Below are positions 2,798 through 13,734 of a stretch of 41,639 bases of DNA, piece by piece. The position numbers and the translations under genes are program-made. Position 1 is the stretch's first letter. Each line of letters opens with the position of its first letter. The stretch covers positions 1-41,639 of IMG/VR virus record IMGVR_UViG_3300032088_000019. One strand, written 5' to 3'. Under the pieces are notes generated by a model. It saw only the letters and a program-made list of their open reading frames with translations. It did no database searches and was not told where the DNA came from. The DNA is from a virus.

Positions 2798-4435
2798 GTG
2801 AGTGCAGAAAATAGCGTATCAAGAAGTGTATCGAAGAGTGTCGGAAGAGACTTAACTGGTAGTGGTGGGGGTAGTGGTGATAACCCTGACCATGTACGTG
2901 CCTTAGCTGATGCGAACGCTGCAATACTAAACCTTACTAGCGCATCCACATACGCCACGGATATAGTCTGGCAGTGGGTATACAACACCTCATACGCTGA
3001 TCAATGGAAGCACATAGACCGGGTTTATATCCCTAGGATTAACGCGGCTTCGGCGTTCACCTGCTTGAAGACTGGCACTGTAGCTACAGCTAGTGATGCT
3101 AACGGTTCGGACGTACCACAAGATGGGTTCTCTATGTCCGCTACTACTAGCGTTGACTTGAACACCTCCCTTGCCAGCCTGTATGGTACTACTAGCGTTG
3201 ACGCTTGTGTTATTGGTACGTTTATAAGCGCGGTTTCTTCTGAGACAGGGTTCTATAACGTAATAGATGGTGACCCTGACAGTTCTGATGTTGGTGTTTC
3301 TGGTAACGTAGGTACTGGCACGGCGGTTTTAAATTGGTTGGGTGGGTATTTCCCTGCTGCTTCTACCGTGCCTAACTCGGCGTTGGTAGGTAAATTAATA
3401 CAACTGCAAAGTGATGCGACCGCTACTGCTGGTACAGCTTTGCTATCATTACCTGATGGTACTACGTACTCAAGTACCAACTATACAGGGCAGACTGACC
3501 TACCCTCTACACTAACTCAGCATAAACCAAACGCATCAGCAGGTGCGTCTGTACAAACTTGGGCTATGACATACGTAGCAAGCTCTGACTTGGATTACCT
3601 TAGCTTCGCGGCTGATACTACCGAGATGCTTGAAGCTCTTACAGAAACTATACATCCTTGGACTGAGGTGTTTAGCGGTGGCGATAGTCTACAGCGGTAC
3701 AACTCAGTCCCATACCCCGCTGCCGATGACACGGTCTTCTACGGTATGGAGCAGTACTTCACAGCCTTCGTTACCACGCTCAACAGGCATGCTGTTACAG
3801 GCTCTACACTAGCTGAACTAAACGTGAACATGGCGGCTGATATGGCAGGGGAGAATAACGACAGCGCAATCATAGGTTCTGGTGTTAACGACATAGCAAT
3901 ACTCTACAACCGTGGAGATTTGTCTGTTGCTGAAATCATTACTAACATGGCGGCTAGAGTAGACACTTGCTTCGCTAACCTAGCTACTAACAATATTAAA
4001 TACATATACTGGCGCAACATCATGCCCGCTAAGGGCAGTCCTTATTCGAGGGGTACGGCTGCTGATGGTTCGTTCGATAACTACGATGAAGTTATGGAAA
4101 TACTTAACGCACACCGTGACAAGATTGTAGCTGAGTGTGCGGCTAGACCAAACGCATACACCGATACCAGATTGTACGGGATACTGGAATCCTCTGACCC
4201 AGACTATGCTGACTTCATAGAGGGCGCATTTAATACAGGGCAGACGGGTGAATGGGACGGGTACGGGAACAATCATGCTGGGTATACAACAGGAACTAAG
4301 CCAAGATTTTCCGCTACCGCAAGCGGTGCAATTATGGACGGACTACACACCAGTGAAGCTGCCGCTAAGCTTTGCGCGGCTATAGTCGGTGGCACTATCA
4401 GGGCAGTTAGATACTACAAGGGGCTTAGACCATAG
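2798..4435 (+). CDS. SGNH/GDSL-type hydrolase with phage structural N-terminus (likely carbohydrate esterase of a tail spike or fibre)
   Basis: A 545-residue protein starting at GTG with GAGGTA upstream. The N-terminus is Ser- and Gly-rich (SVSRSVSKSV, GSGGGSG), as in virion-attachment tips, followed by about 250 Ser/Thr/Ala-rich residues of probable beta structure. The last 260 residues carry the SGNH hydrolase blocks: GGDS (Ser297, block I), GVND (Asn364, block III) and DGLH (Asp514, His517, block V), so the triad is intact. Relatives remove acetyl groups from surface polysaccharides. It is the only plus-strand gene among leftward genes; its 3' end overlaps the next leftward gene by 11 bp, tail to tail. 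Fold call is strong; virion location and substrate are inferred. Confidence 0.8.
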   Translation: MSAENSVSRSVSKSVGRDLTGSGGGSGDNPDHVRALADANAAILNLTSASTYATDIVWQWVYNTSYADQWKHIDRVYIPRINAASAFTCLKTGTVATASDANGSDVPQDGFSMSATTSVDLNTSLASLYGTTSVDACVIGTFISAVSSETGFYNVIDGDPDSSDVGVSGNVGTGTAVLNWLGGYFPAASTVPNSALVGKLIQLQSDATATAGTALLSLPDGTTYSSTNYTGQTDLPSTLTQHKPNASAGASVQTWAMTYVASSDLDYLSFAADTTEMLEALTETIHPWTEVFSGGDSLQRYNSVPYPAADDTVFYGMEQYFTAFVTTLNRHAVTGSTLAELNVNMAADMAGENNDSAIIGSGVNDIAILYNRGDLSVAEIITNMAARVDTCFANLATNNIKYIYWRNIMPAKGSPYSRGTAADGSFDNYDEVMEILNAHRDKIVAECAARPNAYTDTRLYGILESSDPDYADFIEGAFNTGQTGEWDGYGNNHAGYTTGTKPRFSATASGAIMDGLHTSEAAAKLCAAIVGGTIRAVRYYKGLRP

Positions 4436-4892
4436 AGGGGATGGTTTCTGATACCCTTTTTATGTCCGATATTTCAAGCTCTATTTCAAGCTCTTCTAGT
4501 ACTCCGAGCGGTTTCCCGTGTACTCTGAATCCACTCTCTGCGATTTCGTGTACTACTGGAAGTACATCGACAGACTGCCGATCAATGAACGAACAAGCCA
4601 CCGATGTTTGAATCTCCTTACGTTTAGGGAGTGATCGGCAGTGGAGTATGTACTTCTCCACCACATCGTTTGGCAGAGATACGAGTGTGGCTTTGGCTTC
4701 TGTAATGCCTGTTACCTCGTACCACTCACTAGGTAAACGCAGAGTTGCACGAGGTAACACATACATACCAACTAGGGTGCGTGCTAGGAGTCTCCTACTC
4801 GCTACGTCCATAGTATGGAACTTTTTGTACTGGTAGTGCATACGGGTTTTGTAAAACATAACCTTGTCTTCTTCTTCTTTTAGTATACTCAT
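4425..4892 (-). CDS. Unrecognised protein containing a block shared with the AAA+ ATPase gene
   Basis: A 155-residue protein of unknown family. The ATG at 4892 forms a 4-bp ATGA overlap with the preceding stop and is preferred over a GTG four codons upstream. The middle of the protein (KEIQTSVACSFID) nearly repeats KEIQTSAACSFIE of the AAA+ ATPase at 9131-10213. The DNA match is 37 of 38 bases, and the adjoining RQSVDVLP codons are an inverted copy of 20 bases of the same gene. A second short match (HTMDVA) is to the 327-residue gene nearby. This suggests the gene is a recombinant patchwork. The C-terminus is rich in Glu, Leu and Ile (possible short helix). Confidence 0.7.
   Translation of the reverse strand: MSILKEEEDKVMFYKTRMHYQYKKFHTMDVASRRLLARTLVGMYVLPRATLRLPSEWYEVTGITEAKATLVSLPNDVVEKYILHCRSLPKRKEIQTSVACSFIDRQSVDVLPVVHEIAESGFRVHGKPLGVLEELEIELEISDIKRVSETIPSMV
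4561..4654. repeat. Imperfect inverted repeat flanking a copy of AAA+ gene sequence
   Basis: Arms 4561-4584 and 4632-4654 are inverted copies differing mainly in a central 6-7 base patch. Between them, and sharing the TCA at 4582-4584 with the left arm, lies a 38-base segment (4582-4619) that recurs with one change at 9219-9256. The left arm contains, inverted, the 20 bases that follow that segment at 9257-9276. The whole sits inside an open reading frame. Confidence 0.85.
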
Positions 4893-5620
4893 AGCTTTAG
4901 CCACTTATCTTGCTTACCAAGCCACCCTGATAGACTGCTCGTCTCTCTCTGATGTCCAGTGCCTTGGTTATTTATAGTATAGAGCAGGCACAGGTTAGGG
5001 CTAACATCAAGCCAGCGGTCTAGCTTAGCCCGCACCTCCCTGTTTTCCTCTGTATCGTGGGTGAGTATGGTATCGCGTATGTAATCCCTACTTTTCTGCA
5101 ATGACATTCCCTGCTCCCTATCTCCGGCATAGTACTCCGCCGCCACCACGTACTTACCGTTATATCCCGACACTTGCTGTAGGTTATACGCGGCTTGCCC
5201 CATCCATCTTTCCTTTTCGGAAGGTATGAACATATTAATTTCCCCGCGCACCCTGCCAGTACTCATTAGCAGCATAGCTGCCTCGATATGTGTTGCTTGC
5301 TGGTGATCTAGGTTAGTAATAAGAATACTTCTCCTCGTAGAAGTAAGTGATACATACGCAGTAGGTAACTCCAAGTATGAAGCGATAGGTGCTAGGAAGC
5401 TGAACCCCTTCCCGCTTACAGCTTGGTGAACACCTGACCTAATGGATTTCCTAATTGCATTGCGGCTAGCGAATACATTATCGAACTTCTTAAAGTACTC
5501 CGCTTTCCTAGTTACTAATCCCTCATTAGTTGCGATACACCCTAGTGGTGTGAACGTCCATGTGTCCCCGCCGGAAGAGGGCTTGCTGACTGTGGTTGAG
5601 TTTATATATTTGGTTTTCAT
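4889..5620 (-). CDS. Unrecognised 243-residue phage protein
   Basis: No family recognised. The protein looks soluble and mixed alpha/beta, with no signal peptide or membrane segment. It follows a clear AAGGAG ribosome site and ends in a 4-bp overlap with the next gene, so both are likely cotranslated. It is the second gene downstream of the terminator that follows the AAA+/DUF3150/VWA cassette, on the same strand, so it may act with those proteins. A Gly-Trp-Leu-Gly-Lys motif close to the C-terminus loosely resembles DWLGKG in the 327-residue neighbour, which hints at distant kinship but is too short to prove it. Confidence 0.75.
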   Translation of the reverse strand: MKTKYINSTTVSKPSSGGDTWTFTPLGCIATNEGLVTRKAEYFKKFDNVFASRNAIRKSIRSGVHQAVSGKGFSFLAPIASYLELPTAYVSLTSTRRSILITNLDHQQATHIEAAMLLMSTGRVRGEINMFIPSEKERWMGQAAYNLQQVSGYNGKYVVAAEYYAGDREQGMSLQKSRDYIRDTILTHDTEENREVRAKLDRWLDVSPNLCLLYTINNQGTGHQRETSSLSGWLGKQDKWLKL

Positions 5621-5643: not shown

Positions 5644-6627
5644 TTACTGTTCATCCATTGGCAGGCGGTCAGTATCCCTAGTTACATCTAGCCTGCACGT
5701 ACCTTCCATGGGGGTGTTCCTCAAGGAAAATTGGGCTATGTTCCGCACATCTTCATCCCCGTTCGCTACACGCTTCTCATGCACAACCTTGTTTATCAGC
5801 CCCTTACCTAGCCAGTCGCTTAGTAGCTGGAGCTTGTACTCCATTGACACGCGCTTACTTAGGGGCGTGGGTGGCAAAGCAACCGCTACTGTACTAGGGC
5901 GCTCTACAGTGGATAAAGTATCAGATATCGTTTCTTCATTGCTCCATATCTGCTCAAGCTTGTAGCCATGAGCCAACATCTCCCGCTCATACTTTTTATC
6001 CGCAGCGATCTTGTCTTTGAAGTACTTAGGTAATGAGGGCTTGCGTGTGTACTGACCTGCTGTTTCCAGTATATGGTCAGGAAGTATCGTACTGATGTCT
6101 GGCACTAGAGCCTTGAGCTGACCAACAGTCCTAGCATGGGTATGTATGAGGTTAGTTACTTCCTGCAACATGTTAACCACCGCTGCCATCCTCATGGTCT
6201 CGATACATACATCCAGCATCTCTTTATAGATAGGATGCCCCACATCTATAAGCGGTACTCCGATTCGCCCAGATACCTCTGGCAAGGTGAGCGTCTCCTT
6301 CCGATTTGTAAGGCGTGGGTTTCTGCGGGTGACAGAGTTACCCCCCACTTGCTTACCTATACGGTAGTTATACCTGTACCTCATTCCGTCTGGCGCGGCT
6401 ACGTCCATCGTATGCCTATAGCCACGCTTTAATATTGATTTGGAATTGGTCTTGGTTGCTACCGATAGGAACAATTTGTTATCAGGGGTAAGCGATTCCG
6501 TCCACCATCTGTCTGAGTTGGCTACCACCCGTAAACGAATGGGGTCAACGCAGTGGTCTATAAGCGAATCGAAACGCTGTTCCACCCTATCCCTATCGCT
6601 AACCGTTAATCTATATTGAGTCGTCAT
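5644..6627 (-). CDS. Unrecognised 327-residue phage protein
   Basis: No family recognised. The protein is basic in its first half (many Arg in RYRYNYR and RRNPRLTNRK) and has a helical middle part around residues 140-230 with charged repeats. It has no membrane segment and no Cys pairs suggesting zinc. The ATG follows AAGGAG at good spacing, directly after a terminator-like hairpin that separates it from the VWA gene. It heads a three-gene set (327, 243 and 155 residues). Its HTMDVA segment is shared, in the same frame and nearly base for base, with the 155-residue protein. A nucleic-acid-associated role is possible from charge alone. Confidence 0.75.
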   Translation of the reverse strand: MTTQYRLTVSDRDRVEQRFDSLIDHCVDPIRLRVVANSDRWWTESLTPDNKLFLSVATKTNSKSILKRGYRHTMDVAAPDGMRYRYNYRIGKQVGGNSVTRRNPRLTNRKETLTLPEVSGRIGVPLIDVGHPIYKEMLDVCIETMRMAAVVNMLQEVTNLIHTHARTVGQLKALVPDISTILPDHILETAGQYTRKPSLPKYFKDKIAADKKYEREMLAHGYKLEQIWSNEETISDTLSTVERPSTVAVALPPTPLSKRVSMEYKLQLLSDWLGKGLINKVVHEKRVANGDEDVRNIAQFSLRNTPMEGTCRLDVTRDTDRLPMDEQ

Positions 6628-6673: not shown

Positions 6674-7816
6674 TCATTTGTCTATGTCTAAACGGATTGT
6701 CTCCCCGTATGGACACACCTTATTGGTCGTACTAACCACAACTACAGGGTAAGGCGGCGCAACATCCCATCGTGTATAACCATCAGTAAGTATGATTAGC
6801 ACATCAGGTGTTATGTCCTCCTCAGCAAGAGTCTTATATATGGCAGGCATATACGTACCGCCGCCACCTTCAGCCACGTACTGCTCAATCTCACACACTT
6901 CCTCCATAGTGTGAGGTGGATAGGCTTGCGTATCACATGAGCCTACCTGTAGTACCTCAGGCGCGGCTTCGGTCAGTATCCCAGCTATCTCCGATAGGAA
7001 GTGTGTGAGTTCATGATCACCAATAGAACCTGATGTGTCTATGTACACCACAACATGCCCAGCATTAAATCCCGTTGTCCCGGGAAAGTATATGTGCGGA
7101 GGGCTGCTGATACGCCTACGGTTAGGGCGCTGCCATGTCGATGAGTCCTTACCAGCTTTAGAAGTAATCTCTAGCATCAGTTTCTCTGACCACTTAACCT
7201 GTGGCTCAAGTAACTCAGTCACATACCTCTTCATGCTTTCTGGCATAGAACCTGCTGCCTTAGCTGCTTGCGCAGCACCGGCTACAGCCTGCTTGACCTT
7301 TGCCTCATTAGGTGTGGATGAGTCATCACCTTCTTGATGTTCATCGAACCCGTTCTGGTCATCGTTGTCATCGTCCTTAAGCAGACAGTAGACATCATCA
7401 GCCAGCATAGCCCCTGTGTAATCAGGGTGGTATAGCCCCATACTAGGCAGCTTACCTATGCCATCGGAGTGCAGCGTGTGGTTGATGATGTAGTCTGTCG
7501 CCCTGTTCCAGCGCATGGGTGAGAACACCTTCATGTCAGGACCAAAGCCACGCTCGTTGTAAAGCTTTAGGCGTGGGCAATGGGCGAAGATTACATGCAG
7601 TACCTCATGCGCTAGCACGAAGATACGTTCCTCCACATTATTAAGCTCCTCTTTAAAGAACTTAGGGTTTATGTACAGCTTCTTACCATCAGTTGCAGCA
7701 GTGGGTACTGCATCTGTTTCCTCAATGGTAAGCAAGCCCATTAACAACACAGCATAGAAAGGCTGCGATGATATGAGGCGGGACATTGCCTCGGTTACTT
7801 CATATGAACGTGCCAT
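6674..7816 (-). CDS. VWA-like protein with HExxH metallopeptidase-like N-domain (DUF2201 type)
   Basis: A 380-residue two-domain protein. The N-terminal domain (about 1-140) has the zinc peptidase signature HEVLH at 70-74 with another His at 79, as in the putative metallopeptidase half of the DUF2201 family. An acidic linker (145-170, Asp/Glu-rich) leads to a VWA-like fold from about 250 with the metal-site motif DTSGS (Asp260, Ser262, Ser264) and a later LTDG. VWA proteins of this kind work as partners of MoxR-type AAA+ ATPases, and such an ATPase is two genes upstream. Good AAGGAG before the ATG; terminator-like hairpin after the stop. Whether the HExxH is catalytically active is unknown. 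Confidence 0.85.
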   Translation of the reverse strand: MARSYEVTEAMSRLISSQPFYAVLLMGLLTIEETDAVPTAATDGKKLYINPKFFKEELNNVEERIFVLAHEVLHVIFAHCPRLKLYNERGFGPDMKVFSPMRWNRATDYIINHTLHSDGIGKLPSMGLYHPDYTGAMLADDVYCLLKDDDNDDQNGFDEHQEGDDSSTPNEAKVKQAVAGAAQAAKAAGSMPESMKRYVTELLEPQVKWSEKLMLEITSKAGKDSSTWQRPNRRRISSPPHIYFPGTTGFNAGHVVVYIDTSGSIGDHELTHFLSEIAGILTEAAPEVLQVGSCDTQAYPPHTMEEVCEIEQYVAEGGGGTYMPAIYKTLAEEDITPDVLIILTDGYTRWDVAPPYPVVVVSTTNKVCPYGETIRLDIDK

Positions 7817-9130: not shown

Positions 9131-10213
9131 TTACTTAAGTGTTGCAGCGACAAGTGCTTTGTTCTCACTTATCCACTTACCTAAGCTCGGCGTATTCATC
9201 AACGTACCCTCCGTCTTCTCAATGAACGAACAAGCCGCCGATGTTTGAATCTCCTTCGGCAGTCTGTCGATGTACTTCCATAAGCTCTCCACGTTATCTG
9301 AATTGACATGATGCACACAGTTCTGCACGATCATGTACACCGCATCCAGCCTCGAATCGTTAGGAATCTTAGCGGTCAGCGGGTTATCGATCACCTCCTC
9401 AATGGTAGGCAGCTCGTCCTTACAGCTAAGGAACGCAAACATATTCGCGGCTGCGCCCTCACCTATATATCCAGCCACCGCAGCCTGAGGTATAGCACCC
9501 GTTACGATGTTGTTAATGTCCCCACCACTAGCTGCGGTCATCCAGTTCCAAGCGAACGTATATGAGCGCGGCGTACAGAACGGGCGGGCTTCCTTAGGTA
9601 CTTCAGTGGCAAACACACCAGCTTGCTGCTTGGCAAACGCCACACCATAGGGATGCATACCAGTACGTTCCCAGTACTTAGTGTAGTCATCCATGTTGAA
9701 GTCAAGCTCAACTATGCACTCACGGTTAATGCTGTGCATCATTGGCTTACCCGCACCACTTCTATCAGCCTGCCTATTGGACAGAGCTACTACCCACCAC
9801 CCCTCAGGTAACTTGAAGTCACCGAACCTACGCTCCAACGTGACCATGTTAGCTGCCTTGTTGGTTAGGTTATCGGCTGCGTTCTTCTCCTCAAGTACCA
9901 ACACACCACGGGGATGTGCCTCAAGGTATGCCTTGGTTGGCATTAGCCCTGACCGTGTGAAGATAGACGTAGCATTACCCTCGGCATCTTTAGTGGGTAT
10001 ACAGAACCCACGGAAGTCCACCGCATCTATGCTAGGCATATCAACCACCACGATACCAAACTCCTCACCGTAGTGGTCACTCAGTACCTTCGGGAAGGTA
10101 GTCCGCGCAACGTCCGACTTACCACCTCCGGGCGGTCCCATTACATGCAACGTCTGCCGTGTCTCATATGTTGGCAGAATGAACAACGGGTTTTCTAAGT
10201 CTTGTATTCTCAT
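9131..10213 (-). CDS. MoxR-type AAA+ ATPase
   Basis: A 360-residue ATPase. Walker A GPPGGGKS at 26-33, Walker B VLVLEE at 104-109 and sensor 1 ALSNR (Asn146) are all intact, and the short N-terminus fits the MoxR/CobS branch. MoxR ATPases remodel protein complexes together with VWA proteins, and in this operon a DUF3150-like and a VWA-like gene follow in that order. The ATG has AAGGAG at ideal spacing. Near the C-terminus, codons for YIDRLPKEIQTSAACSFIE are the source or sister of the block duplicated in the 155-residue gene at 4425-4892. Family call is strong; the phage process served is unknown. Confidence 0.88.
   Translation of the reverse strand: MRIQDLENPLFILPTYETRQTLHVMGPPGGGKSDVARTTFPKVLSDHYGEEFGIVVVDMPSIDAVDFRGFCIPTKDAEGNATSIFTRSGLMPTKAYLEAHPRGVLVLEEKNAADNLTNKAANMVTLERRFGDFKLPEGWWVVALSNRQADRSGAGKPMMHSINRECIVELDFNMDDYTKYWERTGMHPYGVAFAKQQAGVFATEVPKEARPFCTPRSYTFAWNWMTAASGGDINNIVTGAIPQAAVAGYIGEGAAANMFAFLSCKDELPTIEEVIDNPLTAKIPNDSRLDAVYMIVQNCVHHVNSDNVESLWKYIDRLPKEIQTSAACSFIEKTEGTLMNTPSLGKWISENKALVAATLK
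9219..9276. repeat. Second copy of the block found at 4561-4654
   Basis: Positions 9219-9256 match 4582-4619 at 37 of 38 bases in the same orientation. The adjoining 9257-9276 matches 4561-4580 perfectly but inverted. Here the sequence is a normal part of the ATPase gene, so this is the likelier ancestral copy. Confidence 0.85.
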
Positions 10214-10496: not shown

Positions 10497-10786
10497 TCGG
10501 GAACCTCCACAGGTATATCCATGCCATAGAAGTCTGTGTATCTGCCACCTTTGATGGGGTATATAAACCTAGCCTCATCCAAGCACTCCCCACCCAGCAC
10601 CTCACTCCCGTCACCCAACAGCGTTACGCCACCCGTGACTGAGCGCAGCCCACCATTCTCTTGGCAGGCTACTGACAGGTCATGTACGTGGTACATATCT
10701 ATAGTTACCTCTGTTGTGTACCGACCGAACATAAATATAGCGGCAGCCATCAGCATCACCACTCCCAACTCCGTAAACTTATCCAT
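10493..10786 (-). CDS. Small membrane-anchored protein of unknown function
   Basis: A 97-residue protein with a single hydrophobic stretch at about residues 7-21 (LGVVMLMAAAIFMFG) followed by an outward or soluble domain containing two Cys residues (about 41 and 68) that could form a disulfide. A strong AGGAGG ribosome site precedes the ATG, among the best in the window. It is the first gene of a pair with the zinc-ribbon-like protein. Family not recognised. Confidence 0.65.
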   Translation of the reverse strand: MDKFTELGVVMLMAAAIFMFGRYTTEVTIDMYHVHDLSVACQENGGLRSVTGGVTLLGDGSEVLGGECLDEARFIYPIKGGRYTDFYGMDIPVEVPE

Positions 10787-10821
10787 ATTGTTTCCTCCTA
10801 CCGTGTCAAAAGTAACACGTA

Positions 10822-10857: not shown

Positions 10858-11178
10858 TTAGTTTAGATTCCATAGTGTCCAGCTATCTTCATAGTCATCT
10901 TCAGCGTCACCGCGTGCCGCGTCCTTGCTTTGCATCACGGCAGCGTGATACCCCTCGTAGTATCCCAGCTGCTCCCTTTCTTTGGCTGTCCACTCTATCT
11001 CGTTGTGCAGGTAGTCGATGTACCACTCAAGCTCCAGCACTTTGACAGAGTGGGGGGAAATAATATTTTTTCCTCCTACCGTGTCATACTTTCGCTGTGA
11101 CCGCAGGTCAGCCCGCCACTTATAGCCTGCGTATCTCTCACGCAGGGATTCTTTCATACTCTTAGCTTTTTCTGACAT
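10858..11178 (-). CDS. Unrecognised 106-residue phage protein
   Basis: No family recognised. Highly charged and probably helical: basic at the N-terminus (KAKSMKESLRERYAGYKWR), then an aromatic-rich middle with several Tyr and Trp, then an acidic tail (DAEDDYEDSW). GAGGAGG precedes the ATG. It overlaps the previous gene by 17 bp, so the small genes from here to 11708 form a tightly packed translational unit. Early phage genes of this size often bind host enzymes, but there is no direct evidence here. Confidence 0.65.
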   Translation of the reverse strand: MSEKAKSMKESLRERYAGYKWRADLRSQRKYDTVGGKNIISPHSVKVLELEWYIDYLHNEIEWTAKEREQLGYYEGYHAAVMQSKDAARGDAEDDYEDSWTLWNLN

Positions 11179-12081: not shown

Positions 12082-12132
12082 TAGTAACGTCTTACCTAAT
12101 GATATTGTAGTCGATAAGGTAAGACGTTACTA
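12082..12132. repeat. Perfect 16-bp inverted repeat (operator-like)
   Basis: TAGTAACGTCTTACCT at 12082-12097 and its exact inverse at 12117-12132, with a 19-nt spacer. On the minus strand the spacer contains TACAAT, a good -10 element pointing toward the gene at 12050. The arms could therefore be repressor or activator sites around a promoter, or a long RNA hairpin. Confidence 0.8.
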
Positions 12133-12476: not shown

Positions 12477-12597
12477 TCCCTGATGACCGACACTTTCTAG
12501 CTTTTGTCGGTGTGGTTTGTTGTCATTCATTGCCATGAAGCCGCGCAATGCAGCCTCATGGCAATAAAATAGCCGCGCCAATAACATCTCACCATTA

Positions 12598-12613
12598 AGG
12601 TAAGACGTTACTA
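12598..12613. repeat. Third copy of the 16-bp operator-like repeat
   Basis: AGGTAAGACGTTACTA, identical to the right arm at 12117-12132, 28 bp from the end of the 185-residue gene. It has no inverted partner nearby. Confidence 0.8.
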
Positions 12614-12640
12614 GCGCGGCGTACGTACCACCGTCAAGAA

Positions 12641-13198: not shown

Positions 13199-13235
13199 AA
13201 TATTATTTCCTTATGGTCACGCAGGAAGTCCCCTT

Positions 13236-13280
13236 GTGTACCGGTATGCGTTCTCATGGTGAAAACGCATAACGGTACAC
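13236..13280. repeat. 17-bp inverted repeat with one mismatch
   Basis: Arms 13236-13252 and 13264-13280 match at 16 of 17 positions over an 11-nt loop. Located 38 bp upstream of the ATG at 13198, it would lie in the leader or promoter of that leftward gene. Operator or structured leader. Confidence 0.75.
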
Positions 13281-13299
13281 ACTCACAATGTGAGTGTGT
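13277..13299. repeat. Perfect 23-bp palindrome (operator-like)
   Basis: ACACACTCACA, one A, TGTGAGTGTGT: eleven perfectly paired bases on each side, directly abutting the previous inverted repeat. A near-symmetric site with no loop is typical of a dimeric DNA-binding protein; the ribbon-helix-helix protein at 13801 is an obvious candidate. Confidence 0.75.
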
Positions 13300-13734
13300 C
13301 CGATATGTTAATTACCAATGCTGGCACGCTGTCCATGCTGCGCGCCGTGTTCACCTATCCCGAAGGCATAGGATCAGCACCTGTATGATATGACGTTGTC
13401 ACGCCTATCTGCGAAGCCCCATAGCGGCTATTGTCGCGATGCACCACCTAGCCAATTCGCCCTTCCACGCCCGCGCTACCGTTCGTGCTGAATCCGCCTA
13501 CCATCATGTTGATGTTATGCATCTACTAGGGGTTTTTGCTCGCCCGCGATCAAACGCGGCGCTGAGATGAAGGTCGGGGCGCGGCATGGACAGGGGGGAG
13601 TCCCCAGCGGGGTCTATTTATGTACCTCCACTCAATTTTTGTTATTTGAAACATCTATACGTTATTCCCGCCGCGCCCCTAACTAATATCGCTAAGCTTA
13701 GTGACACGAATGCGACACCGACTGTCGTACTGTC

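Follow-up and report, generated by a model that had tools for sequence, protein, structure and literature searches.

In the window, i.e., the whole stretch of viral DNA analyzed here (IMG/VR record G000, 41,639 bases), a small gene that we call S carries a 63-bp block assembled from two pieces of a MoxR-type AAA+ ATPase gene, M, which belongs to the same gene cluster and lies at a distance of 4.6 kb. This block is very probably a distant templated insertion with inversion, left behind by one complex error of replication or repair that involved template switching or foldback. The mutation class as such is already known; the block is a natural specimen of it that survives in a phage coding gene. 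Template switching, one of two origins that the original prediction had offered, is supported by an S ortholog without the block, by a donor sequence that is native to the ATPase gene and by the two-piece content of the insertion. The coordinates of the features are compiled in Table 1.

Table 1. Coordinates of the inserted block, its donor and its recipient in the window
Feature	Position	Strand	Description
63-bp in-frame insertion	4557..4619	-	two ATPase-gene pieces; encodes KEIQTSVACSFIDRQSVDVLP; missing from the L005 ortholog
Piece 1, direct copy of 9219-9256	4582..4619	-	37/38 identical; the single mismatch changes Ala to Val
Piece 2, inverted copy of 9256-9280	4557..4581	-	25/25 identical
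Arm apparently native to the recipient	4632..4657	-	sense GAAGTACAT..ACTGCCGATCA, encodes EKYILHCRS; resembles donor 9256-9280; aligns with EKYVLHLQP of the L005 ortholog
Recipient gene S	4425..4892	-	155 aa; no family matches
Donor gene M, MoxR-type AAA+ ATPase	9131..10213	-	360 aa; PHROG 1297 (E 7e-52), N4 gp24-like
Donor segment	9219..9280	-	62 bp; encodes KYIDRLPKEIQTSAACSFI; native ATPase sequence

Composition and reading frame of the block

Self-BLAST of the window returned the direct pair as its top non-trivial match (E 6.5e-12), at the positions and identity originally reported, and placed the inverted pair (E 3.9e-6) among the next-ranked ones. The inverted copy had been described as a perfect 20-nt match between 4561-4580 and 9257-9276; it is indeed perfect but extends over 25 nt. 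In 30 third-order Markov surrogates of the window, the longest inverted match was 20 nt, compared to the 25 nt observed. Altogether, 62 of the 63 block bases could be traced to the donor segment, the sole difference being a C to T change on the sense strand (G to A on the plus strand). Read in the sense of the two genes, both of which lie on the minus strand, S runs ...GAAGTACATACTCCACTGCCGATCACTCCCTAAACGT / AAGGAGATTCAAACATCGGTGGCTTGTTCGTTCATTGA / TCGGCAGTCTGTCGATGTACTTCCA / GTAGTACACG... and the donor ...GGAAGTACATCGACAGACTGCCG / AAGGAGATTCAAACATCGGCGGCTTGTTCGTTCATTGA / GAAGACG..., with slashes marking the borders of the pieces. The two pieces abut in S and also in the donor, which makes a chance origin of the block untenable.

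The block comprises 21 codons and keeps the frame of S: codons located 3' of it still score as coding in the kept frame, at 0.05 per codon; the two alternative frames reach -0.35 and -0.26. Piece 1 is translated in the donor's own frame, giving KEIQTSVACSFI in S and KEIQTSAACSFI in the ATPase, i.e., 12 residues with one change, so that the matching frame noted in the original prediction holds. Piece 2 encodes DRQSVDVLP across the junction, and its sense strand in S is complementary to the ATPase sense strand at all 25 positions.

This complementarity, together with the 12 residues in the donor's frame, would fit a block that has a function, either because the S transcript is antisense to the ATPase transcript or because KEIQTSxACSFI mimics the C-terminal region of the ATPase. 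However, the block is missing from the only other ortholog, a frame is kept by chance at odds of about 1 in 3, and S and the ATPase gene share one strand and one gene cluster. Moreover, just two near-identical contigs carry the block, which precludes evidence from conservation. We consider such a function highly improbable. That the block has been retained as a regulatory module (a 25-nt antisense) or as a peptide module engaging a partner protein of the ATPase seems just as improbable; if true, one template switch would have linked two genes.

The hallmarks of diversity-generating retroelements are repeats whose differences are biased towards adenine, along with a reverse transcriptase nearby. 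An origin of this type is unlikely, as the copies differ at one position and no reverse transcriptase was found among the ten proteins scanned.

The description of the genome as otherwise short of repeats applies only in part, since tandem repeats coding for Ala/Lys/Glu are also present in the window, as are some hairpins. There are three copies of the 15-mer GGTAAGACGTTACTA (12082-12096, 12118-12132, and 12599-12613; 0.1 expected). Its first two copies face each other as a hairpin and the third follows 480 bases on, within a hairpin at 12572-12620; the 15-mer is possibly a regulatory site or an origin between divergent gene blocks. Two strong adjoining hairpins (47 and 41 bases, self-complementary) occupy positions 13235-13307 in a gene-poor stretch and are perhaps terminators or an origin. 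Finally, a 24-base leader with a core resembling a ribosome-binding site (sense TGACACGGTAGGAGGAAACAATAT) is found at 10785-10808 and 11063-11086, apparently directly before two gene starts, with 23 of 24 bases repeated.

Donor, recipient and their relatives

When viral sequences were scanned with single proteins, two-member alignments or DNA patterns, the same two IMG/VR relatives were recovered each time, plus one distant ATPase locus; a close pre-insertion intermediate of S was not found by any of these three approaches. The first relative, G001 (IMGVR_UViG_3300031766_000013, 45 kb), is almost identical to the window. The second, G002 (IMGVR_UViG_3300036716_000966), harbors locus L005, which encodes an ATPase with 83% protein identity. 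At the homologous place this ATPase reads RLPKEIQTSAA, and the far relative in locus L020 (28% identity) aligned through the donor stretch as YIERLAREMQ. Since the segment is found at the same place in the L005 and L020 ATPases, we conclude that the ATPase gene is the donor. Near the ATPase gene, a DUF2201 metallopeptidase/VWA-like protein is encoded at 6674-7816, and the two lie near one another in L005 and L020, too; the label HNH endonuclease, which this protein receives from PHROG 1314, looks like a misnomer.

The recipient most likely starts at the ATG at 4892, where it overlaps the gene upstream (4889-5620) by the 4 bases ATGA. Searches with the S protein against phage proteins, Pfam, and PHROGs yielded no match, nor did searches with S and the ATPase in bacterial and archaeal genome contigs or a comparison of the DNA of the region with 50,697 phage records. 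The AlphaFold model of S is of low confidence (mean pLDDT 42.4) and was left out of the argument. In L005, the S ortholog (5846-6268, 140 aa) has the same ATGA overlap at its start. The first two thirds of the ortholog align with S (BLASTP E 1e-13; 31-34% identity), up to EKYILHCRSL in S and EKYVLHLQPL in L005, whereas the tail of the ortholog is unrelated and has no block. Compared to L005, the 21 inserted residues match in the ATPase only. As the sole informative ortholog is this distant and its tail is unalignable, the exact target site of the insertion is one that we infer. The C-terminal tail of S also contains a perfect 12-base tandem duplication (TATTTCAAGCTC) at 4470-4494, which is consistent with a tail that tolerates change.

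At the donor gene, the window and L005 share ~75% of their nucleotides (~25% of bases differ), whereas the copy in S is identical to the donor at 62 of 63 positions. This makes the insertion younger than the split between the two lineages and agrees with the recent event proposed originally; gene conversion, proposed along with it, does not, in its strict sense, make a rearranged two-piece block. As to the presence of the block in relatives, it was missing from the distant L005 ortholog and unchanged in the near-identical G001.

Amplification is known to yield inverted chimeras, and the block could in principle be an artefact of this kind, such as an inversion produced by multiple displacement amplification, or an assembly chimera in a metagenome contig. 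However, G001, a separate contig with different ends, has the block in unchanged form, and a misassembly is accordingly unlikely. It differs from the window by four SNPs in 13.5 kb (6799, 11055, 12026, and 12032), none of them at either locus, and by six bases in length elsewhere, and is identical to it over 4300-5000. In addition, a kept frame and one diverged base would not be expected of a fresh artefact, and we regard a chimera as very unlikely. In G001, ~10 kb lie between the sequences that match the window's ends, and the part of the window at ~13.5-20 kb is absent. This layout suggests that the phage genome probably exceeds 50 kb and is either circular or circularly permuted.

Arms, junctions and a proposed mechanism

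Piece 2 pairs imperfectly with the arm at 4632-4657, around a perfect 11-bp core formed by ACTGCCGATCA (4574-4584) and TGATCGGCAGT (4632-4642); the window has just two occurrences of this 11-mer, where 0.03 would be expected. The hairpin formed by the arms is more stable than that of shuffled sequences (DNA z -3.05, RNA z -2.41). Imperfect inverted arms are therefore present as originally described, but the outer one does not seem to be part of an element: it lies in the portion of S that is common to the L005 ortholog, at least over EKYxLH, and appears to be recipient sequence that preceded the event and is like the donor by chance. The resemblance between the two, GAAGTACAT..ACTGCCGA, is reached by 0.7% of random windows (above 99.3%). 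On the donor side it stops at base 9256, which is likewise the end of both copied pieces.

Rickettsia palindromic elements are palindromic and insert in frame in genes. The in-frame palindromic insertion in S has this in common with them, and its imperfect inverted arms and stable hairpin would suit a small mobile element of this type at both loci. Unlike the Rickettsia elements, however, it belongs to no dispersed family of copies and derives from a native gene segment. Neither the window nor the 45-kb G001, which includes ~10 kb beyond the window, contains a third copy, and an exact 29-nt pattern covering piece 1 revealed none elsewhere in IMG/VR. Furthermore, a second arm is lacking from the ATPase copy, which is conserved native coding sequence in relatives, and the outer arm in S appears to be coding sequence of the recipient, at least over EKYxLH. 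The mobile element that had been suggested as the other possible origin is thus highly improbable.

A weak point of the template-switching model is that the junctions carry little homology. The first, AAACGT/AAGGAG, has essentially none, and the second has 1-3 nt at most, the insert reading TTCATTGA/TCGGCAGT and the native S arm GAGTGA/TCGGCAGT; similarities of 8-9 nt between S and the ATPase gene are found near the junctions. The arguments from junctions and resemblance are post hoc, as they were made with the sequence already seen.

Our model starts from what was directly observed, namely the make-up of the block from two pieces, its donor, its absence from the ortholog, and the kept frame. 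During copying or repair of S, a nascent 3' end would have taken M as an ectopic template, with the S strand possibly tethered to M through the chance resemblance of the arms. Once 38 bases of M had been copied, a foldback would have moved the end to the other strand, where it would have copied 25 bases of M in reverse sense before rejoining S, with the 21-codon insertion as the net outcome. The second junction may have used the TGA/TCA beside S's own arm, and the 11-base TGATCGGCAGT, which is otherwise absent from the window, would be its product. All that selection probably did was to filter for an in-frame, stop-free outcome in a C-terminal tail that tolerates change. A family A DNA polymerase is encoded at 898-2988 of the window.

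We infer one event rather than two. Alternatively, S could first have received an ectopically copied ATPase segment and gained the inverted arm later, through a quasipalindrome-type template switch. The native arm of S resembles the donor arm, and a transient, donor-converted arm could have templated a local foldback, an order of events with which the TGATCGGCAGT junction is also compatible. However, the inverted piece matches the ATPase at 25 of 25 positions and the present S arm only imperfectly, which would require a later change in the S arm, and a single event is simpler. Two successive events are therefore unlikely.

Relation to known systems and significance

Foldback or template switching in the course of repair yields two pieces of one distant locus in opposite orientation. 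The anatomy of the block has a precedent in insertions at DNA breaks in yeast, where 65% of complex templated insertions in rad27 mutants and 78% in rtt105 mutants consist of two fragments from one distant locus in inverted orientation (PMC11724301). In the rtt105 mutants the two pieces are adjacent with little or no overlap, and the microhomology between fragments has a median of 6 and a range of 2-11 (PMC11724301). The block in S likewise consists of two short, adjacent fragments from one distant locus, in inverted orientation. It differs in being natural and fixed in a phage coding gene, with pieces that abut at one base and microhomology of 0-3 nt.

In phage T4, templated mutations arise when strands switch sequentially to an imperfect repeat located elsewhere, as outlined in a review (Schultz, Carver and Drake 2006, reviewed in PMC3016281). 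As outlined there, the T4 mutations start from an imperfect repeat, whereas S has acquired a 63-bp two-piece insertion with inversion. Local template switching gave multi-codon changes in yeast genes (PMC8604942) and is able to create hairpins (PMC8794818). Template-switch mutations and quasipalindrome correction, like the event in S, give an inverted copy with a new stem and change the coding sequence. However, they are local, acting on short-range inverted repeats, whereas the template used here is 4.6 kb away and a direct copy accompanies the inverted one.

The block in S thus represents a clean natural phage case of long-range templated insertion with inversion, a class known mainly from yeast repair assays and cancer genomes. 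Errors of this kind can give a phage protein 21 in-frame codons in one step, although the effect on the phage may be nil.
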